Assembly: GCF_964355755.1 (NCBI RefSeq)
Contig: NC_092679.1
Span: 1,116,001-1,180,000, forward strand
Direction: 5' to 3'
DNA: 64,000 nt
From: Antedon mediterranea
Taxonomy: Eukaryota > Echinodermata > Crinoidea > Comatulida > Antedonidae
Shown here in pieces: positions 2,656-21,218 of this stretch (within the stretch, counting starts at the first letter, position 1; every line of letters starts with the position of its first letter). The position numbers and the translations under genes are program-made. The notes under the pieces were generated by a model that was not told the DNA's origin, made no database searches, and worked only from the letters and a program-made list of their open reading frames with translations.

Positions 2656-3420
2656 TTTTATTTAGTTTACATATACTCAAATAAAAACAGAAGAACTGAT
2701 CAACGTTATCTAAGCTGAAACGGCAACTAAATACATAAATAAACCAAAGTAAAACAGGTTGCTGGTGAAACTTCTGGCTGCTCAGCAGCTTCCTAAACAA
2801 TGAGCTCGCCCTCTATGTGCATAATGAAACCATGACAACAACAACAACCGGAAGCGATGCGATTGAAAATTATTATAGTTTTTATCAATGTTTGTGTTTT
2901 CATCAAACTATACCTGCTTAACTAAGGCCTAGCTAGGCCGGATCAGACATAACCATAACCCTCTCAATATTCAATATCTTGACAATTAAAATAAATTGAC
3001 ACTTGTTTTCAGGGTGCCAATGATTGTTGTTGAGGATTGAGAGGAAGACGAGCGAGAGGAGTTTCGTACCAAATCCAGGCACTGAGTAGTTGATAGGAGA
3101 AGGCATGTTTGTGGCTAGGCTAACCTACTTTGTAGTCTATAACCTAAGCCTAGGCTTGCAATTTGAATTAATAAATATTTTGTCTATAATAAAATGTTAT
3201 GGTTTATTATTCTCAGTCGCATCATAAGTTGGTTGATAGCACTTCGGTTTTGGTCGCAAAGTCAATAAATTATTTTTATGAACTTAAATTGTAAAGTAAC
3301 CTCAATTATTTTTTATTTTATTTTCAAATTAAAGATTAAAAGCTAGTAAGACGCAATGACAAACAAAGTTAAATAAATGCCATCATCGCAGTTTACAAAA
3401 GCTCAACAACAGTCCGCGAG
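2656..3420. promoter_or_regulatory. Shared intergenic promoter region, BBOF1 / SPATA7
   Basis: This 765-bp gap separates the ATGs of two divergently transcribed ciliary genes, so it must contain both promoters. I could not find a full palindromic RFX X-box by eye; only a GGCAAC half site at 2722-2727 is visible. The divergent arrangement is seen directly; co-regulation is inference. Confidence 0.5.
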
Positions 3421-6250
3421 ATGGCGGCGTCTAGAGAAAAACGCAACCAAGAAGGTCAGTTATCGATTAGGAAAGCATTTAATATAATAAAACTTTGTTG
3501 CGTAAACTATATATTTATATTTTTGGTGTTTTTTACAGAATTTACCAAATTACCCAAAAGGGACATGGTAACGCCAACGAAGGGAGCTTACAAAGGACAT
3601 GTTTCCGTCAAAAGTAGCGGTAATTTTAAAATTTATATTTTAATCATCGGCTTACAAGCTACAAACTATCATAGAATTAATTTTTTAAAATTCACTTGCG
3701 TATACATTGCAACATACCAAAACAATTGTAAAAAGTATTTCAATTTTCAATGTTTTTTTTTTTCAGTTTATGCAGCGACTGGATGTACAAGGCTAGCAAA
3801 TCAGAATATGGTCCGTGATCATTTAGATGCACACTACAAAAAAGTTAACTCTGCTAAATGTAAAATAATTTTGTTTCAATATTTTAATTTTAAAACAATT
3901 TTATTTGATTGATTCTTTTTTCTCTCCATCTCTTATTTCAAAAATGTAATTGTAGTGTGACAGATAATGTTACCAATATACTACTTTACCTCTTTGCCAT
4001 TGTTATAACTATGATTTCGACAAGAAAAATATTATTTGAAAATCTGGAATACCATTTTGCTTTCTCTTTTAGCTTGCATTGACAACGGAAAGCCTAAAGC
4101 TTGGACTCACAGTACAAAGAGTAAGAAACACATTCTCTACTGTATTTAAGAATTAGTACTGTATGCCAAGTTATATCTAAATGATCAGTTCCATTAGGAA
4201 CTGGATAGGCTACCCTCAGTAAATATGGTAATAAATAAATAAATAAATAAATATCCAAAACATTTTAGTAACGTTGTTGTTTTTATGACTGATTTATTTT
4301 TAGAACGAGATCAACTGAAGAGAAACAAGATGAAAAAAACTAGTAATTCCCGTCCTTCTTCGAGGGCTAGTAGCACAGGCAGAAACTCTCGTCTGGATCA
4401 AGATGATGTAAGTATGATACAAATTGTGGCTCTCGTTTTTATGTGGTCGAAGCATGGGAATAAAGCATTTTGATTGGTTACTTTTATTGCAAAAGAACAT
4501 TATTACTTAAGACAATTTTTGTTTTCAGGATTTTTATTTTAAAGAATTAGATTTTGATGAGTCGGGGACAGGCCAAGGTTTGTTAGCATCTTCTGAAAAT
4601 GGCCGCCAATCAACAAATGAGAGAGTACCACGAACAATGACACCATCCCAACGTGCAGGGTTGACCCCAAGGTCATCCGCACCGAAAGTTTATTCTGGAG
4701 ATGTTCTTGATAAGATGTCAACAAGCTTTGTTGCTCCTGCAAGACCTTACACGCCTCGAACAAAGAAGTCGTCTGCACAGTCCTGGCTCTCAAAATCAAA
4801 TGTTTATAACTCCCCAAAAAAAAATACACCTCCCTCCCGCAAACAGTCAAGGTATGCAGTGCTTTATATATTGTGTCTTATAGCTGTGGTATTCCCTACC
4901 AAGCTCTGTCTGAAGTGTGATGCGCCTGGTGGTAGTGATATGACATCATCATGTCCATATTTGGGCACATCACATTTTTTTCTCGCATACAGTTTGATAG
5001 TATAGACAGAGCTTTAGACACTAAGGAAAACAAAGTCATTATGCATTTATTGAAATATAGAAATTGTTATTATATTTTAGACAAAAAGTTGAATATATTA
5101 ATGAAGAGGAAAGCTATGGCAAAACTGTGAAATACCATAATGGATTAAATGATACATTTGACAAAGAGCCAGAAGAAACAGTAGGATACGCTGGAACATC
5201 TGATTGGATGTCGGAGGAGGACGGCGGCGGCTTAAATGACAGTACATATGACAACAGACACAAACCTTTATACAAGTAAGCATTGCTGTCGAAATGCTTC
5301 AACAGCAAAAACTAGAAGGGCACTCAGAGAGCGCAAACCTCCGCCTAGGCATTTGAAAATTGAATCATATGTTCCCATACAGCTATGAAACCATCCTTTA
5401 AAATCTTGTGAAAATCGGGCAATAACTTTTTGAGTAATCCTGCTAACAAAATTATTGAAACAAACAAACACACACGATCGACCACATAAGCTCTTGCCAT
5501 TCTGGCAGAGGTAACAATTGATTTATGTAGACTTTTGTTATAATATGTGATTAATCTTATTTTTTCAACTTTTCAGTTCGGCAATCAAAGATCAAAAGTT
5601 GAATTCTGAAAAAGCAATCCAATCTTCATTAAAGATTCAACAAGAGTAAGTACTGAATCCTTGGGTCGATTTAGTATGCAAGTTTAAACTGGGTATTTTC
5701 ACCACTAACCAATAGGCACATCTAAATCTGATGGGAGAAAACACATGACATGTGGAGCCTTAAAAAATATTATGCCCAAGTCGTAGGGCATAGTTAAAAT
5801 TATACCATGGCCAATCAGATGAATTGAGCGACGTCTGTTTTATTAGGGGCCGGTGTTAGTAGCAGACAAGATGAAATTTGTTTTTATCATTTAATGTAGG
5901 GAGGAAGAATTGCTATATTTAGAATTTGTGACAGATGTTACTACAGATGTTTTGAATCGTGGTGTGTACACAAACAGAATGCTGAAACAAATATTTGAAT
6001 CTCATATCACAAATAATAAAGACAGATTAGATGAGGTAAGATTCTGTATTATCAAACAGATACGACCCAATGAATGTAAAAGTAAAATGTATACTACGGC
6101 ATCTATACAAATGTTTTATCTTGAAAGAATAATAGTCGCTTATCAATTTTTTAGAGTCGTATGCAGAATTTAGTGCAACAACTTCAACAGGATTTAGCGA
6201 TTGAAGATGAGGAAATATTAGCAGACGATAAAGTTGAAGAGGGTATATAA
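3421..6250 (+). CDS. SPATA7: SPATA7, ciliary transition-zone protein
   Basis: SPATA7 acts at the photoreceptor connecting cilium / ciliary transition zone with the RPGRIP1 complex. Ten exons: 3421-3454, 3539-3619, 3767-3859, 4073-4120, 4304-4407, 4529-4851, 5081-5275, 5577-5645, 5900-6035, 6155-6250. They join in phase to 392 aa (human is about 600). Family blocks seen: YKGHVSVKSS, MVRDHLDAHYKKVNSAK, SGDVLDK followed by PARPYTPRTKK, and the conserved C-terminal block EEELLYLEFVTDVTTDVLNR with ITNNKDRLDE. The C-terminal tail beyond this block is short and acidic, so the protein is shorter than the human one. A polyadenylation signal lies at 6469-6474. A MITE (4896-5017) sits in intron 6, just after the donor. 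Confidence 0.92.
4896..5017. mobile_element. MITE family 1, copy a
   Basis: Member of a short inverted-repeat family with termini aagctctgtctacactat / atagtgtagacagagctt and a conserved core around gtgatatgacatcatcatgt and catatatgggcacatcac. Here the left end is diverged and shortened; the right end is good. It lies in SPATA7 intron 6. Confidence 0.8.
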
Positions 6251-8939: not shown

Positions 8940-11900
8940 TCAGTTTTCTTCTTTCAATGATGTTATGCATGTTCGTAGAAGTTGTACTTGGGCCTAAAAA
9001 ATAAAAAATCATGTTTATCTCTTTATGTTTCGATTTTTTAATTAAAAAAAAACACTTTACGAGGTGGATTTAGAGAGAAATTGAGTCCATGTCCATAAAT
9101 GGTTTTTGTCAACAAAATAATTTATACACAAATGATGGTGGCAAAAAAAAAAATAATTCGAGTGATTTTACCAGGATATTGAATTTTGCTAAATATTGTT
9201 TTTAAATTGTGTGTTACAAAATTTTTTTGCAAAACTTGTTCTGATACCTGTATAAAATAAAATATCAAATTAAATATTAAAAATAATTTTCAATATCTTA
9301 CCTTTGCATGTTTTGTTTCAAGTTCTGCTAACTCAACCAAGTACTTCCTGTAAGCTTCAACTCTACGTGCTTTAAAGTCAGTTAGTTCGCCTTTAGCGAT
9401 TTCAGATATCTTCTCAAACTTTTCGCACGCCTTTTGTTGCGCTGTTTGGGCTTGAGCTAAATCTTTGTTTTTTAGACGAGCTTTCTCTAGATTCTTATTT
9501 GCCGCTTCGTAGTTGGCAAGGGAACGAGATCGGCGAAGTAACAACGACTGTTGAAAAGATATTTAATTTCATAAGAAAATGACAAAGTAATTTATATGAA
9601 AGGCTTTTATTGTAGTAAAGTCAGAGGCGGGTGGGGTCGAGGAGGGTAGAACTAGGGCTTTATGTTCACCCTTTTGACAGCCAAAATAAAATTATGAACT
9701 ACTTTTTGACATATATTTTTGACAGACTATAAACTTTAATATTACGCTTATCCATTTAAAATCCTGGATCCAATATTTGACATCTATTATTTTAAAATTA
9801 TAATGTTATAATTTTGGATCCAACACCCCTGAAAGTAGGGCCACAAAAATGCCATATACCTTAGCGGCTGCCGAGTCTCTCATATAATATCGCAAAAGGT
9901 CTGAAAGTTTAAGATCTTCATCAGATGAAACTCTTGCTTCTAATTTCTGTATTAAATAAATAACAACAAAATAATTCAGACAAGAATGAAGCAAGCCATT
10001 TTGATTCTATAATTTGAATATTTGTGAATTATATTTCAAAATATACCATACAAATTGAGATTATTATACATTGAACATCTAGTAACTGTGTACAGAGTAT
10101 AGTAAGTTCATTGTCAACTTACTCTAACTTTTTCAAATGTGTCTGCAATTTTATTGAAAAACCTGCAAAATAAAATATAATTACTTGAAATTATATAAGC
10201 AATGAACATAAAAAAAGGAAAAAATGTATTATAATAATAACTTAGGATTCTATCTATTAATGTGCCTGTATAAAATTTGTTAATAATAAATAAATATGTC
10301 TGTAAATACGGTGACACGTACTTGTCTAAATCGGTTCTCTCAATCGTAGCAAGCCCAGTGAGACCTCCAGATATCTGAATGTAATTATCTGCAACATCTA
10401 AATAAAAAAAAGAAAGATGTTTACAATATCTGACAAAATCATAGCAAAGGTAGCTATAACTTAAAGCTATTTCTTAAATAATCTCTAAATTATTGTTTTG
10501 TATTGAATTGATTTATACTTTTTTCATATGATGTATGTACTGTTGTTGTATTCATGATATGTGATGTGCCCATATATGGACATAATGATGTCAAATTTGG
10601 CATGCAGTCTGTTTGTCATTAAGCCATGCATAGTAATGTTTATCATTGTCTACTTCAACAAACAAGCATGAACTTACTTTTATGAGTTCTTGTCATTCTA
10701 TCTGACTTAGAGGTGGAATCTTTTACTCTGGTGTGATACTCAACTAGAAAACTCTTTTCATGCTCAAAGAAGCAATCAACATCCTAAATAAAAATGAAAA
10801 ATAAATGTTAAATATATAATTATGTTTAAGAGTCACCCAGCACTAGCACTGATATACACCTATGTTATCATCAAATGGTTTATTAGTCAAATTCACCCCA
10901 AATATAACAACCAATTGAAGAATGTTCTGTTAGTGTGAGATTGATGAAATGTTTGTATGGATGGTTTGAAAATAAACTAACCTTTTGTCCAGAAAGAAAA
11001 ACTTCACTGACAGATTTTGTTAGTGATTTGTAAAGACTATCAAACCTCTCTTTCTTATTTCTTCCACGTACATTTAACTGTAACCAAAGAGAAATATAAT
11101 TGTTTAAAAAGAGAGAAGGAAAAGGATGGTGATAAAAAACACATGAAATGCTGTGAAAGAGAGAGGGGATGAATAGAAAGAGGAAAAGAAAGGAATGGAA
11201 AATAATGAAAGAAGCTTACATCTTGGTCATACTCCAAGAACACTTTAAAGTTTTGATCACTTCTTAGCGTAGGGTGAGCAGCAAGTCGTTGTAAGAACAC
11301 TTCATGCATGGCTACAGTTTTCTTAAAAGTTGCTAGATATTCCCTTAAAATAAAACAACATCAACATTAAGTTCTGTCTACACTATCAAATTAGTTTGAA
11401 AAACAAATGTAATTTGCCCAAATATGGTAGTGATATGTTCAAATATGGCAGTGATATGACATCATCATGTCCATATATGGCACATCACATTTTTTTGTCA
11501 TAAACTTTGATAGTTTAGACAGAGCTTTAACAATCTTATCATACAATACAAAGTCAAATTAGAAAATTCAAATGAATAAAGGAGACTTTACATCATCAAA
11601 ATACAAATTTGCAATCTTCATGTAAAACCGGTCTATACACCTTTTTAAAGGCCAGGTGCGGGCAAAAATTTCTATTGATCATACATTCCAATAATTATCG
11701 ATCTATAGTTTCCCCTATGTTTCATAATTTTGGGGATTTTATTTGTGTTAAAATAAGCACTTTTTTATCAGTAAAATAGTTCAAATTACACAGTAAACTC
11801 TCTATTCTTTTGTACACAAATTTTGTAAATAGAGAGGCATTTTAAAAAGCTATGAAAAATAAACGGTGTGGTAAAAAGTTTTATCAGATGACTAAATATA

Positions 11901-14900
11901 GGTAATATAACTTGAATTTTACATTTCTGATATTTTTATTCAACTTTAGATTTTTATTTTCATGCTATAGCCAAAATTATCCACCGTATACCCACCATCT
12001 TTTTTCACCTTCTAGGGAGTTACCAGATATGTTATTACATTAGGTTAAACTACCTAACTACTGAAAAAAAGTCTTCCTGGTTTTTATGGCAGAATTTTGC
12101 CAAATTTTGTATTTGACCATATTAAGGGAAATTCATGTTTTTTTGTCTTGATTTCTGTTACAAATATTTGATTTATGTACAATTAACCAGATATTATATT
12201 TAAAATTCATGCCTGTACCTGAGCTTTAAAACTTCATTTAATGTAATTTTAACCCTCCATTTAAGTTTTCACTTACGCTTCCAATTCTTGTTTCATTTTT
12301 GAGAACTCTTCTTTAGTCATTGTTCCCTCACCTTCTCCTAACTTCTGAAGCTTTTCTCTGGATGCGTCAAAGTCTGGTCTAGGCGGTGCAGGTGGGATCT
12401 AGAAAATTGAATATCTCAGTGACTATCTAAAGGAATTACTTTAAATTACTAAGTTGATAAAACTAACAGCTCTCGCACACACACCCAGTGCTTTTTGTCT
12501 TGATATATAGAATGTCATATTCAGAAAGGTTTTATAAAGTAATTGGCAGTGCTTTTACTTAACTTGTCATGGTTAAGGTGCTGGAAACGATATCCATTAA
12601 ATCAGCACACATTTAAGTCTCTATTGTTTTGGTGGTAGAGCAAATCTTCTTGAATAAGGACTTTAAATTGGAGGTCCAATGTTATGATAGTAATAGACAA
12701 TTTAGAGGAAGTTTAGCAACAGTTTAAAGGTGTAATTTGATGTACCTCTAACGGACGTTAGTACTTCCTGATTACATAGAATATGGTACAATTCAATGAA
12801 AGGTTAAAATGGGGTCATACAGTGCATACCACACAGGTGCAATGATCATTATTTCAGTTCAATAGTGTGCACTAATGCACGCCATGTGACCCACAATTGT
12901 CCAATCAAATGACAGAAATGTCATCAATGAAAAGGCTTAGAATGACCAATACAATCATTTCACAAAAAAAGAAAAACAGTACTCACAATGACACCAGCAT
13001 AGTCCTCATTCTCTTCAAACATGTGATGAAGCCAAACAAACTCTTCATGTTCTCTGACCACGGAAAACTCACTTTTACTGAAATCTGGCAGTGTTGTCTA
13101 AAATAAATTATTATTACAAACTTACACAAACATCATATGAAAGCATTTATGTATGTAAAAGTAAATACAAAGTTACAAATTATGACAAAAAACAACAACT
13201 ACTGTGAAGCAATCCAAATCCCAGCAATTATTATAAAATTATTATTTAAAAATGAAATTCATTAGATGGCTTGGAAGGCTTTTTGGAATAATACGAGAGA
13301 AACATGTTTCATTGTTAAAATATTGTTTACAAGAGCATAATATTTTTTTAGTACAATCAACTATGTAGCTGGGACATATGCGGTTTTAAAATATGTCCGT
13401 TTTTTTTTAATTCAGAAAAAAAAATATTTTTATGGTGTGTTACACATTTAGCAATGCTACCAAATTAAAGGTTTTGCAGCCTTACAAATATGTTGTTAAT
13501 ATTATAAACACTAAGTTGTTCAAAGGAATACCACTGAGAATTTCTACACCAATACACTTAAGTACACACACATTACATGCTTAGTCTAAAAAGTTCTAAC
13601 AATGTAATATACAGTATAAAGTACAAGTTGGGTTAACCATACACTGTACATTTCTACTTGTAAGTTTAATATTTTACTTAAAAATAAGCAAAATGAAAAA
13701 ACAAGCTTAAATTCTAGAAAGGTCTTTCAAATATAAAACTGCTAGATAAAACACTACTGGGGTGGACAACACACAATTAAACACATTAAAAACAAAAAAA
13801 GTATGTTGTGCCACAAGATACGTAGACTATCAGTACATATTTCATAGGGAAGACATTTATTATCATACACTAGCTTTTAACTTACAAGAATTTCTAAACT
13901 ATTGGTTGTGGGTACCACCTATGAAAAAAATATACATTTTTTATGCTAACTTTGTAGACAACTTTAAATAATATAGTAGGTAATGCAGATGGATATAAAT
14001 GCTGAACTATAAAGAAAATTTGAAGAAGCACAACACGTATGTGAAATGTGTTTGGTGAAATATCTTCAGCACATAGATGCGTTAAGCTGAACCAATAGCT
14101 GGGTGATGATTACCAGAAAACATTGTTAACATGCTGCAACTTTTCAGAAGTGAAAACAACCTTTTTCTCACATATCTCAGAAAATAACAACACTACCAAG
14201 AAATTACATAAATCAAAATACACATTTCAACATAATCTTTTAAATTTTAATGAACAAACTGAACTTGAAAAATAATTGAAAGTAATCAAGGCAAAAAGGT
14301 GGTACCTTTTGACTTTTAAGGAAGTTGAACAATTAAAAAATTGTATACATACATTTTAATTTGAATGGCAACAATACACTTAAATTTCTTAAGCTCTGTC
14401 TACACTATCAGAATAGTTTGACAAAAAAAGTGTAATCATGTGCCCAAATATGATATCGATATACCAAATATGGTAGTGATATGACATCATCATGTCCATA
14501 TATGGACAAGTTTGAAGTGTAGACAGAGCTTTAGAATATGTTTTTGAAATGATTTGTTTACCTTTGTGTGAACCGTAAACTTAACTTTCTCTCGTTCGCT
14601 CAAAGCATCAGAAATATCCACAAGCAGAGATGTGTCGGCACTCAGGTCAACGGTATCGGAACGACTTGGCTAGCGAAAAAACAACATGCATTGTATTTAT
14701 TAATATTAATGTGGATATTATTACATAATTTATTTTTTTACTTACAGTAACCTTGGTTAATTTAATTTAGTTAAAGATTTAGCCTGTTTTAAAAAAAAAT
14801 ACCTAGTGGCTATCCTTATGACAACCAATAGTATGATGATCAATAATAACGCAATGTGTTCAATGTTTTGAATTTATTAAGAATTAAAAATACATAAAAA

Positions 14901-15498
14901 CATTATAATAATAAAAAAACATAAATTATTGACATTAAAAATACAGTAAACATTTAAAAAAGATTTCCCAGGAAATCGGTTTGTAACATTACTGATGCTT
15001 ATTTTTTTCTTGTCACTCAGACTCAGAAAGTCATGACTTTTTATAATTCTAATTAATAAATATTAATATTTTTATATGAATTTTGGGAAGGAGGCAATTT
15101 AATATAATGGCATAAACTGTTAAATATTAAATATCAATATATATTTTAAAATGTCATTCATTACAGCATTAGAATACTGTATGTGCTAATAGGCCGTTGT
15201 TTATGTTATACAAAGTAGTAACAAAAAGGGGCGGATACAATGGTCTAGCCGGCCTAGCTAGGTGGTACCGAATTACAGCAACAGCAGCAGGACGGGCGTT
15301 GGTGGTGTAATTTTCCGAAAAAAATGAGGCTAGGCCTAGCTAGGCCACAAGTCTTACCTTAGTTTGGTCCTCAGCGAGAAGGTTTGGGCTTTCTTCCAAT
15401 CCATCCTAAAATTTAAATATACATTAATTGCATTCAATTATTACAAATTTCAGAAAAGTGTTGTTTATCGGTTAAATTGTCAATAAACTTACCATCAT
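8940..15498 (-). CDS. SNX6: Sorting nexin of the SNX5/SNX6 type (PX-BAR)
   Basis: Retromer-associated SNX-BAR protein (ESCPE-1 type) that tubulates endosomal membrane for endosome-to-Golgi and recycling transport. Thirteen exons: 15493-15498, 15358-15405, 14562-14669, 12987-13097, 12277-12398, 11220-11343, 10982-11077, 10678-10783, 10322-10397, 10123-10162, 9860-9946, 9302-9547, 8940-8993. They join in phase to 407 aa (human SNX6 is 406). The first exon codes only Met-Met, matching the MM start of SNX6. PX-domain blocks: [57 protein letters not shown]-domain blocks: [52 protein letters not shown]. It is close to both SNX5 and SNX6, so it is probably the single pre-duplication invertebrate gene. 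It is head to head with MGME1. Confidence 0.95.
10556..10612. mobile_element. MITE family 1, fragment
   Basis: Carries only the internal gtgatgtgcccatatatgga block and a little flank. No termini remain. It lies in an SNX5/6 intron. Confidence 0.55.
11369..11533. mobile_element. MITE family 1, copy b
   Basis: Both termini are present (ctgtctacactatcaaatta and tttgatagtttagacagagc). The interior atggtagtgatatg block is duplicated. It lies in an SNX5/6 intron. Confidence 0.85.
14390..14535. mobile_element. MITE family 1, copy c
   Basis: Left terminus aagctctgtctacactatca, the full core, then a shortened right arm ending gtgtagacagagctttag. It lies in an SNX5/6 intron, just after exon 3. Confidence 0.85.
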
Positions 15499-15748
15499 GT
15501 TTGCCTGTTCGACGGTGGTTTCGCGAAGAGTACACTGTCACGTGATATTCCGGCTTAACTTATTTTACCAGAATCAAAATAAACAAAAATAACAATATTT
15601 TACCATTTCTCATAAACTATTTAGAGTAATAACACGCTTTTATTAATTTTAAAATATTATGTAGTATATTTATTGTTTAACTAACATGATAAATTTTGAA
15701 ATTTTATATTTTTCTAGAATACAAATTGTAGATTATCCGGCAAGTACA
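15499..15748. promoter_or_regulatory. Compact bidirectional promoter, SNX5/6 - MGME1
   Basis: About 250 bp separates the SNX5/6 start codon (15498, minus) from the first ATG in the MGME1 leader exon (15749, plus). A CACGTG E-box lies in tcacgtgat near 15538-15545. Divergent transcription from here is required by the gene models; the binding-site role is inference. Confidence 0.6.
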
Positions 15749-16318
15749 ATGTTTACAAAATCGAGGTCAGCCGGTGTTTACCGTGTCACATCACTCACGT
15801 ACACACACCCGGCCCTCACACACGCGGTAAGTATAAACAACAACATGCATAGAGCTCATTACGTATTATTAATATGTAATCAGAGACTGTTTTGGTTATT
15901 TATCATCAGTATCCTTCGAAACCATAGGATAGAACATGCACAGGGTGTCAGGATGGGCCAGGGATTTTAATTCTAATAAATTAATTTATTTTATTAAGCA
16001 CACGTGAATGATGAATGGAGTTTAACTTTAACAGTATATTATCGTGGCCATTTATCTGGCACATCATAATTAACGTACCTAACCTGGTGAATGATGATGA
16101 TGTCGCTAAATGTCCAATGCCAAAACAAAAGGACGAAAATGACATGCTTTACTTTTGTTATAACCAGCATTATTAATATGAATAATTATGATATGTGTTT
16201 TGTTTCATTTATAATATTTGATTGCCAAACATTATTTTATATATTTTAATAAATATTGATATATTAATAATATTGATTGATTGAACAGATATATAGCATT
16301 GCGAGGAATCGAGCTTGA
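15749..16318 (+). other. Upstream ORF in the MGME1 leader, split by an intron
   Basis: ATG at 15749 opens 26 codons to a good donor (gtaagt at 15827). Joined to the acceptor at 16288/16289, the frame continues nine more codons and stops at 16316-16318, which is 11 nt before the MGME1 ATG. It shows no similarity I recognise. It is more likely a translational-control uORF than a protein gene. Confidence 0.5.
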
Positions 16319-16329
16319 TATTCATCAAC

Positions 16330-18442
16330 ATGGCTTCATCTGTGCAACTATACAGTAACCACGTGCGCAGTTGTCTTCTACTTCGGTCTCAGATTAGAGC
16401 TTCTTCAAGCAGCAGAACTGTATTGCAACCTCGTCATAATAAGGAAAGAAAGAAACCAACAACCTCTCAGAATGCATCTGATTTAAAAGAAAACTTCCAG
16501 TTCCACAATCTATCTGATTTTCATACCAGCAAAGACGATGGCGTTGATGCGGATGGTTTAGCAGTCAGTAGACATGGAAACTCAATCTTTTTTCCTTTAG
16601 TAAAAAAAGACAAACAAGATTTCACAAAGTGTGTCCAAAAGTCAGGTATAAATAGAATTATACCATACATACACCATTTATATTGCACCTTATCAAGAAA
16701 TGTCAAGGTGCATTACAGATAAACTAAAACTGAATATTATGTTATGAATTTGAAACCACTGTTATTTGCCAAATAAGGTTTTTTAAAATAATTTGATAAA
16801 TGCTTTCAATTTTTTTTTAACTTTCAGATTCCGCTTCAGCAAGTGTTTCAAAAGTTCTCAAAGAGACGATGCCACCAGAGAGGTTGTTGATTCTAAAACG
16901 ATGGGAAAATAAAATGATTAAAGAATTAGGAATTGAAGGTTTTGAGTCTTATAAAAAGGGTTAGTTCTTGCGGTTTAATTCCAAATATGGTACAAGAATC
17001 AAAATCTAGGATAGCGCTCCTGTAACCTTGCACGATGACAGCATAATATTGTCTTTGATAACAAAATTTCACTGCCATGTTAGTCTAAGTTCTAGACAGA
17101 GTTTTGAATTAATTAGTAAAAAGATAATTGGCAAATATGGCGTTTCATACGTATATTACTTGAACTTAGTTTTCAGACAAAAATTGTAACCAACATAAAA
17201 AGACAATAACTACTGAGGCATGTCATGTATATGTCAACAATTTAATTTTATGTAATTTTAAATGTTAATTTTCTGGATTTTAAATCTGCCTAGCACCTCA
17301 TGATTAAAAAAGGTTTTGTATCTCGTTCATGATTAAAACAGTTTAAAAATCTTGATTAATGAATTTTTTTATGCAAGAAATATTCGAGACAGGAAGTACT
17401 TTTCACCAGTATTTACAAGATTATCTTATCTCTGGCAAATCACCCGATGATATTCCAGAGAGTCTGCTGGGCTACTGGACAAGTATTAAATCGGTCATTC
17501 CACATGTCAGTGACATCGGGCTAAATGAAGAACCTGTCAGACATCCTTATCTTAACTACCATGGCATTGTCGACTGTGTTGCATCCTTCAGGTACATGTT
17601 TTTCTTTAAATTGAATTACTGTTCCTTAAAATATATTTTGAATTTAAAAATTAAAAATAAATTCACTTTAATTGTTGCAATAGGAATCACCTGTGCGTTA
17701 TTGAATGGAAAACATCTAGGAAGAGAAAGAGCAGTTTAAAGCAGACCTATGACTACCCTCTGCAGACAGCAGCCTACGCTGGTGCTATCAACTTCACAAA
17801 GGAAACACAACATCAGGTAGTTCTGCAACTTGTTTTGGCACACATGGCGTGTCATAATTATACTTGAGCTGGAATCACCAAAATTCTTTACTGGTCATGA
17901 AGAGATAATAACTTAAAGCAAGTCAACACCCACTGGTATTATGGCGTTGAAATATCCTAAACCCTGTCTACACTATAAAACTTTATGTGACAACAAAAAT
18001 GTGATGTGCCCATACATATATACTGGTACTGGTTCAAATAACCGTCTCACAGAGACATCTGGTAGCCATTGACTTAAAGTTGGCATTTGGATTCGTTACT
18101 TTTAAATGTACAGTATGAGAGTGACTACTACCAAATTGCACAGTCACAAAACAACTTATAAAACAGTTCATATGAACATGTCATATCACTACCATATTTG
18201 GGTACCACACTTTTTTTGTTTGATAGTGTAGGCAGAGCTAAAAATACCATTTTATATCCAAATTTGAATCTGAACCATTTTTTTTTCAGATAAACAATAT
18301 TGCCATTGTTATAGCATATGAGAATGGTGACCAATCAGATGTTCATTTCTTAAATAGAGACTTGACCAATTTATACTGGACACAGTGGTTGCAACGGTTG
18401 CAAGAGTATAAACAGTCACTTAAAACTGTGTCAGAGGAATAA
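16330..18442 (+). CDS. MGME1: MGME1, mitochondrial genome maintenance exonuclease 1
   Basis: RecB-type PD-(D/E)XK single-strand DNA exonuclease that trims 5' flaps and linear mtDNA in mitochondria. Coding exons: 16330-16645, 16828-16959, 17378-17591, 17684-17816, 18290-18442. They join in phase to 315 aa (human 344). The N-terminus is Arg/Ser-rich without acidic residues, as expected of a mitochondrial presequence. Landmarks: FFPLVKKDKQDF, PPERLLILKRWENKMIKELG, YHGIVDCVASFR with catalytic Asp near residue 215, CVIEWKTS with Glu228 and Lys230 (the D...ExK motif), and PLQTAAYAGAIN carrying the RecB-family Gln. A noncoding first exon ending at 15826 holds a uORF. A polyadenylation signal lies at 18511-18516. 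It is head to head with SNX5/6 and tail to tail with the next gene. Confidence 0.95.
17962..18241. mobile_element. MITE family 1, copy d, with internal insert
   Basis: Left arm ctgtctacactataaaactt near 17967 and right arm tttgatagtgtaggcagagc near 18220 are separated by about 150 bp of foreign sequence (roughly 18020-18165). The right end lies about 50 nt from the acceptor of the last MGME1 exon. Confidence 0.75.
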
Positions 18443-18945: not shown

Positions 18946-21218
18946 TTAACAGTCTCCATCGACCATGGCTTTTGCAAGATTAACAATTTCCAGTAACTGC
19001 GAGCTTACAGACGTCTCGATGTTGCTGCCAACTTCAATTTGAACATCTTCTACTACATGAGTATTACATTCAGCCAGTTGTAATTTTTCCAACACCGCAG
19101 ATGCAGTGACACTAACAGGTACAGGTTTGATGGCAGTATCACCATCAGATTGTGTTTCTATCAATGTATTATTCTCTTGCGTGGTAAGTGATGTCGTGTT
19201 TAGTTCTGATGCTTCTCCTTGCTTGGAACTTTCTAAACTAAGTTTCTCGCTTGGATTATTGGATGAGCTGCTTTCGCTGTTATCAGTAGCACTTGTTACA
19301 CATCTAGTAGTACTAGCAACAGTATCTAAACACCTCAGCGGTAAACCTGGAAATTGAGGGCGCTGTGGGACTTTAAAGAGTTTCTTACGATTCTGTTTAA
19401 TTTTGATTCCTATCAAATTTCCTGTAACTGGGTCAAACTTTGGCCGATTATTTTCTATATCACCATGACTTTTCCACGTTCTTTTACAAACTTCCTTCAA
19501 ATCGTCATTTTCCTCAATCTTTCGCTTGACTCCTTGATTCATAACATTTTCTTCCTGGCTGACTAACTCCCTGGGTTGTTCATTTTCTTCATGATTAACT
19601 AACTCCCTAGGTTGTTCATCAGATTGTTCACTAATCAAGCTCATGTTTTCCCCACTCTCATCACAATCGTTCTCCTCATTTTCAGGCTTGTACTTAAGTA
19701 TACACTCGTTCTCCAGAGGAAATCTAAAATTTGAAACAGCAAATGCAACCGAGCATTCTTTCAAAAGATTATCCAGTGACTTGTCCATGTGGTTCAACAA
19801 CATATTCTGCGTGACAGACTCGTCCAATAGATGGTACAACTGCTCCAGCTTATGTTGTACGGATATTAATTTGGATTTTTTAATTTCTTCTGCTGCCACA
19901 GGTCCATCTTTCCGAGCTAATTGAGCCGACGGCCTTATCTTTTTCCAGGTAGATAAATGTTTATCATTATCTGCATGAAAATCTTTTGCAATTTTTCGTA
20001 GTCTCCTTCTGTTGAGGTCCCTTACTACAACTTTGTAAATAGGGTATATCGATGTTGCCTCGCCGTGGAGCATAGCATGTACATCTTCAACGGATGAGTT
20101 CAACGCAAATTGACCGTATAACTCCTGCTTGAGTACATTTGGAACTGTTTGATGTAGGGTGTCTTCTAAACTAACAGAATGGCTATGAAACTTATAGAAA
20201 ATCACATCAACTCTTCCAGAATCCGACATTTTGGCAATCATCTTAGACGGACAATTTATTCCAAATTTTTTAGTCAGTTTTGCTTTACGTAATGTCGTTT
20301 TTGTTTTGGAATCTAAGTCTCCCTCGAGTCCTGGTTTTGGTTGACCATCTCGGTAGCAGTAGTAAACAAAACGTCTGTCTTGTTTATTTCTACGGGTGTA
20401 ATAAACGTAGTTGTCCAACTCTAAATGATCTTTCCAAATTTGGAACTCTTGAAATGAATTAAACTCTTGTAACAATATGTGGTCTTTGTCTACTGCATGT
20501 TCCAATGACATGTGATTGACGCAATCTTGCTGAGTATCAAATGATTTAGAGCACTCTTCAAAAAACAGACACTTGTGTTTACATTTTATCTTCTTCTTCC
20601 CATCTTTTGTGGATTCCTGCTCATCTACTTCAACAAATTCTACATTCTCATTCTGTAAAATAAACAAAATATCCGACATCAGGTGCTCCAAGCATAATAA
20701 CATGCTGATATGCATTATTCACCTAAAAAGCGCCTAGTAAGTTACAGAGCCTAACAAAATGACAAATGTATACATTATTTGGATTGGATTTGGATTTTTG
20801 AATATCCAAACAATTAGGAGGAATTATCATTGCATTGCAGGGGGGTGCATGCAGTGTGTCATATTGGGTAATCCCAATCCAGCAGCTACCTCAAACTTGT
20901 CATGCGTGACCTTATTAGTGGGAGGCAGCGGGAGCCTGGAGTCTTACCAACTGAATTGCCTTTGCAGCTTCTCCAAATCCCTGTAGTATCGCAGTTGCAA
21001 CTGTTGTTTCCTGTCAAGAACAAAACAAAAACAAATTCAATGGCACTTAGTTAAAGTTTGCTATTTAACAAGCTTTCAGCAGACTAATTTTATGCACACA
21101 TTAAAAACAAAGTAGACATGTTTGGCGATTGCCTGTATTAACTCACCACAGTTTCATTACGGATTGCTGGGAAGCTGTCTTCATATATCACAATCGTTGT
21201 TTGTTCTTCTTCAGTCAT
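18946..21218 (-). CDS. C2H2 plus FAR1/FLYWCH-like domain protein, unnamed
   Basis: Three exons: 21147-21218 (starts MTEEEQTTIVIYEDSFPAIR), 20948-21010, and a long last exon 18946-20652; together 613 aa. Near residues 65-90 there is a C2H2 finger (C-x5-C ... H-x4-H around FFEECSKSFDTQQDCVNH). This is followed by a FAR1-like segment with the pattern F-QEFQIWKDHLEL-NYVYY and RRFVYYCYRDG, then NCPSKMIAKMSDSGRVDV and FHSHSV. That is the DNA-binding module found at the N-terminus of MULE/SWIM-type transposase proteins in many invertebrates. No transposase core or SWIM motif follows. Instead there is a charged, Ser/Glu-rich C-terminal half. It is probably a domesticated, nuclear DNA-binding protein. 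Polyadenylation signal at 18874-18879. A possible noncoding first exon ends near 24291. Confidence 0.7.

Follow-up and report, generated by a model that had tools for sequence, protein, structure and literature searches.

A single SNX5/6/32-type sorting nexin gene (SNX5/6) and MGME1 stand head to head in an ambulacrarian genome. We consider it likely that this pair and that of human SNX5 and MGME1 are orthologous, inherited from the deuterostome ancestor, and that the two genes are most likely driven by one short, CpG-edged, nucleosome-poor promoter that fires both ways. The bidirectional promoter of human SNX5/MGME1 was already known; what is added here is the pair in an ambulacrarian. The arrangement is probably more than 500 million years old. 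A pair spanning an ambulacrarian and human extends the small set of very old divergent pairs; in one survey, 60 of 821 human divergent pairs were kept in all seven vertebrates compared, fish included.

Gene models of SNX5/6 and MGME1

The two genes lie in a 64-kb window (the whole stretch of DNA that was analyzed, to which positions refer unless a chromosome is named). Both were found to be complete and divergent at the coordinates given in the first-pass annotation (Table 1), on the basis of gene models, Pfam domains and matches to solved human structures. All SNX5/6 introns in the gene model have GT-AG borders, and the encoded protein carries PX (E 1.8e-15) and Vps5 (BAR; E 3.1e-12) domains from Pfam. 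Its best solved structure was human SNX5 (8afz_B, E 4.8e-154), with 242 of 391 aligned residues identical (62%), covering human residues 12-402. The PX helical insert falls within this alignment and the Vps5/BAR region is C-terminal, which identifies the protein as SNX5/6/32-type. The cargo-binding groove around EAEYLA-FKKTV is also kept, with a 12-residue stretch here aligned to EAEYLAVFKKTV in human SNX5; these groove residues have a role in cargo binding. Identity to human SNX6 was 67%, a value that is based on an unverified SNX6 sequence and says nothing about whether the protein is more SNX5-like or SNX6-like.

The MGME1 protein has a PDDEXK_1 domain (Pfam, E 2.1e-6) and matched all four solved MGME1 sequences (E 4e-48 to 6e-47), the best being human (8xa9_A, E 4.4e-48), with 81 of 202 residues identical to human (40%). 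The PD-(D/E)XK site is present (NYHGIVDCVAS...LCVIEWKTS here, NYIGLLDCVAE...LCVIDWKTS in human); its second acidic residue is E here and D in human, both of which fit the motif. The first 45 residues, with 9 R/K, 1 D/E and 12 S/T, have a composition typical of a mitochondrial import presequence and may function as one. For each of the two genes, one matching locus was found across the entire 354-Mb assembly.

Two further coding features were observed next to these models. A 590-residue open frame (18949-20718, minus strand) lies tail to tail with MGME1; its start resembles a zinc finger, and Pfam gave no match for it. The third SNX5/6 intron holds a possible 33-bp in-frame microexon (13886-13918, minus strand; 11 residues, with AG and GTAAGT borders) that would insert into the PX domain, and its occurrence by chance is quite possible.

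Table 1 Positions of the SNX5/6 and MGME1 genes and of the features in the gap between them.
Feature	Position	Strand	Description
SNX5/6 (SNX5/6/32-type sorting nexin)	8940..15498	-	13 coding exons, 407 aa; ATG 15498, stop 8940
SNX5/6 coding exons 1-7	15498-15493, 15405-15358, 14669-14562, 13097-12987, 12398-12277, 11343-11220, 11077-10982	-	gene model
SNX5/6 coding exons 8-13	10783-10678, 10397-10322, 10162-10123, 9946-9860, 9547-9302, 8993-8940	-	gene model
Gap between coding starts	15499..16329	.	831 bp; presumed shared promoter, presumed MGME1 leader exon and intron
SNX-side CpG-rich edge	15499..15556	-	GC 0.52, 6 CpG in 58 bp
TCACGTGA palindrome	15538-15545		SNX-side edge; sole copy in window; 40 bp before SNX5/6 ATG
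ETS-like CCGGAA	15548-15553		SNX-side edge; beside the TCACGTGA palindrome
Presumed bidirectional promoter, AT-rich core	15557..15735	.	GC 0.17, 1 CpG in 179 bp
CpG-rich edge with predicted MGME1 leader exon (non-coding)	15736..15826	+	GC 0.54, 8 CpG in 91 bp
Predicted 5' UTR part, second MGME1 exon	16289..16329	+	follows AG acceptor with weak pyrimidine tract; predicted from sequence
MGME1	16330..18442	+	5 coding exons, 315 aa; ATG 16330, stop 18442
MGME1 coding exons	16330-16645, 16828-16959, 17378-17591, 17684-17816, 18290-18442	+	gene model

The presumed shared promoter and retention of the pair

The divergent coding starts are 831 bp apart, within the spacing of less than 1 kb by which bidirectional pairs are recognized. 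The nearest transcription start sites should thus fall inside the gap, barring a further upstream exon. The distance of about 250 bp given in the first-pass annotation separates the SNX5/6 ATG (15498) from an ATG (15749) that lies within the predicted MGME1 leader exon; it does not apply to the coding starts. The ATG at 15749 was ruled out as the start of MGME1, since splicing to the best acceptor (16288/16289) yields a 35-codon upstream open reading frame that stops ahead of the ATG at 16330.

The part of the gap next to SNX5/6 consists of an AT-rich core between two CpG-rich edges, and because of that core the overall GC content remains near 0.31. This GC/AT/GC layout occurred once in the 64 kb in a scan with loosened limits, which were set post hoc, once the layout of the gap was known. 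The CpG observed/expected ratio was 1.5-1.6 at 15401-15900 versus a window mean of 0.72, and fell to background by 15800-16100. Since ~6% of the window has a ratio of at least 1.4, this peak by itself is not exceptional. The predicted MGME1 leader exon, with an approximate 5' end, closes at a GTAAGT donor (15826/15827). Among the motifs, sites for NRF1, SP1 and CRE were not found within the gap, and the presence of TCACGTGA and CCGGAA is weak evidence, as 13 motifs were tried. We propose that the AT-rich core (~180 bp) would remain nucleosome-free and that distinct initiation sites would lie at both CpG-rich edges, from which polymerase would proceed leftward into SNX5/6 and rightward into the MGME1 leader exon.

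Alternatively, the pair may be homologous but served by separate promoters, with SNX5/6 starting near 15520-15560 and MGME1 at ~16250-16330 with no leader exon. The leader exon is predicted from the letters of the DNA alone, and the acceptor ahead of 16289 has a weak pyrimidine tract, both of which fit this alternative. However, the CpG-rich edge at 15736-15826 finishes at a consensus donor, no second GC/AT/GC layout occurs in the window, CpG enrichment is back at background by 15800-16100, and the human SNX5/MGME1 pair has a common promoter (PMC8943175). We therefore regard separate promoters as unlikely and favor a shared one.

The back-to-back arrangement does not show that the SNX5/6 and MGME1 proteins cooperate. 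Shared promoters are common among broadly expressed genes, and their partners are mostly functionally unrelated. The simplest cause of retention, and in our view the probable one, is that the promoter is not divisible without damage to a gene: splitting two broadly used genes would leave one or both with a harmed promoter, and protein cooperation would not be the reason.

A benefit of co-regulating SNX5/6 and MGME1 as such, linking endosomal retrieval with mtDNA maintenance, appears to us an improbable alternative cause of retention. The very long conservation and the TFE/USF-type TCACGTGA site in the gap would agree with such co-regulation, but a single motif match among 13 tried is weak, and SNX6 and SNX32 persist in vertebrates with no MGME1 known to adjoin them. 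In one survey, functional relatedness was more frequent among conserved divergent pairs than among those with poor conservation (PMC2871058), but another survey found little functional relation between bidirectional partners: of 35 bidirectional DNA-repair genes, not one had a further repair gene as its partner, and co-regulation was concluded not to be the main force behind bidirectional pairs (PMC3403606). The link from endosomal traffic to mtDNA maintenance that the first-pass annotation had read into the arrangement is a hypothesis that none of our results directly supports. A more specific proposal, in which a shared E-box/ETS promoter (TCACGTGA and CCGGAA) jointly tunes endosomal retrieval and mtDNA turnover, for instance through TFE-type factors answering lysosomal or mitochondrial stress, and in this way explains retention for more than 500 million years, seems very improbable. 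HSPD1/HSPE1 and PPAT/PAICS are likewise ancient head-to-head pairs with a gap of less than 1 kb (PMC2871058). Their partners have a common pathway, however, whereas SNX5/6 and MGME1 have none, as far as known. The findings also suggest that sequence changes close to the starts of human SNX5 and MGME1, whether variants or edits, may alter both genes.

Age of the pairing and its chromosomal context

Human SNX5 and MGME1 are adjacent and divergent, as stated in the first-pass annotation. Their promoter has been presented as one case of a bidirectional promoter to which RCOR1 binds (PMC8943175), and a human gene list has the order SNX5, SNORD17 and C20orf72 (the former name of MGME1), with OVOL2 further along. 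In cattle gene lists the two genes appear in succession, in one case with an RF00567 RNA between them and in an interval that groups SNX5, MGME1, NKX2-4, NKX2-2 and PAX1 (PMC6375599), and they are neighboring entries in a chicken gene list. We found no literature on a SNX5/6-MGME1 pair in any invertebrate. Viral and prokaryotic contig collections yielded no related locus, as one would expect of a gene from an animal. The human pair at 20p11 is like the one described here in its gene families, head-to-head orientation and short gap. It differs in that the sorting nexin here is the single SNX5/6/32 pro-orthologue, neither SNORD17 nor any other Rfam family was found in the gene and the start sites are predicted. 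SNORD17 is located at human SNX5; here, no Rfam family reached the gathering score anywhere in the window, and a relaxed threshold gave chance-level matches only.

Of the sequences that make up the 354-Mb assembly, 11 are large (22-41 Mb) and 7 small; mitochondrial COX1 was not found in it. Chromosome number and GC content would tentatively suggest a crinoid. C2 bears the single Hox cluster (C2:7827797-8206135, ~380 kb), which has 12 genes and seems intact; among these genes are one of Hox9/10 type and three of Hox11/13 type, one of the latter being inverted. Four posterior Hox genes of the Hox9/10 and Hox11/13 kind are a mark of Ambulacraria. Hox clusters of echinoderms and hemichordates have been compared previously (PMC11310086). 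The ambulacrarian-type cluster, together with one Pax1/9 and one SNX5/6, places the genome outside the vertebrates. Since there is one SNX5/6 in this ambulacrarian versus several in vertebrates, the pairing most likely predates the vertebrate duplication, in line with the earlier suggestion that it is older than the split of SNX5 and SNX6. After that duplication, MGME1 remained beside SNX5 only. For the lineages compared, one ambulacrarian and the vertebrates, the evidence is best read as descent from a single pair that the deuterostome ancestor already had prior to the SNX5/6 duplication.

C10, the chromosome of the SNX5/6-MGME1 pair, bears the only Pax1/9-type paired domain found in the assembly (11.48 Mb), as well as Nkx2.1 (15.15 Mb) and Nkx2.2 (15.21 Mb), which are 58 kb apart, and PRORP (1.51 Mb), 0.38 Mb from the pair. 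The window also contains SPATA7, JKAMP and a DUF4515-matching gene, which we read as BBOF1-like. In human, SNX6, PRORP, PAX9, NKX2-1, JKAMP, BBOF1 and SPATA7 are on 14q and SNX5, MGME1, PAX1 and NKX2-2 on 20p11, and these two stretches are duplicates of one ancestral region. With the human relatives of the C10 genes on 14q and 20p11, SNX5/6-MGME1 lies on the expected ancestral chromosome, and the pair can serve to mark the chromosome from which human 14q13 and 20p11 derive.

On C10, 3.7 Mb separate Pax1/9 from the Nkx2 genes, and the deuterostome pharyngeal gene cluster thus appears partly dispersed here. POLR3F (Rpc34), a 20p11 gene in human, failed as an extra linkage marker, since it is on C5 and not on C10. 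Its sole match (C5:25839567-25840472) is an uninterrupted 332-residue frame covering nearly the full family model, suggestive of an intron-less or retrocopied gene that may have replaced its parent.

A second divergent pair and a repeated element in the window

Short divergent gaps are not rare here, as the same window holds a second one. The BBOF1-like gene (minus strand, start ~2656) and SPATA7 (plus strand, start ~3421) are head to head, with coding starts ~765 bp apart and a CpG observed/expected ratio of up to 1.5 around 3251-3400 in the gap, in which the RFX X-box consensus was not found. BBOF1 and SPATA7 are both linked to cilia, and their human counterparts, both on 14q, are megabases apart and not known as a pair. 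This pair is divergent with a short gap, as is SNX5/6-MGME1, but unlike the latter it is not conserved as a human pair; what makes SNX5/6-MGME1 informative is which two genes are paired. MGME1 would be the divergent neighbor of SNX5/6 by chance in ~1 in 3,500 cases within C10, if the genome is taken to have ~25,000 genes, ~1,700 of them on C10, and with the short spacing not counted. Against an ancestral pair we counted the location of POLR3F on another chromosome and this second, unconserved head-to-head pair. An independent origin of the pairing in vertebrates and in the ambulacrarian lineage is nonetheless very improbable: divergent gaps of less than 1 kb are easily found in the window (the second at 2656-3421), but the specific partner matches, at the above chance even inside one chromosome, and the C10 context corresponds to human 14q/20p11.

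A short element, rich in AT and bounded by inverted ends (AAGCTCTGTCTACACT...AGTGTAGACAGAGCTTT), was observed at 11374, 14396-14516, 17964, 43952, 54390 and 60811, that is, in introns of SNX5/6 and MGME1 and elsewhere in the window. It recurs on every large sequence searched, with 1,762 first-look candidates, 40 of which were scored, and looks like a MITE.
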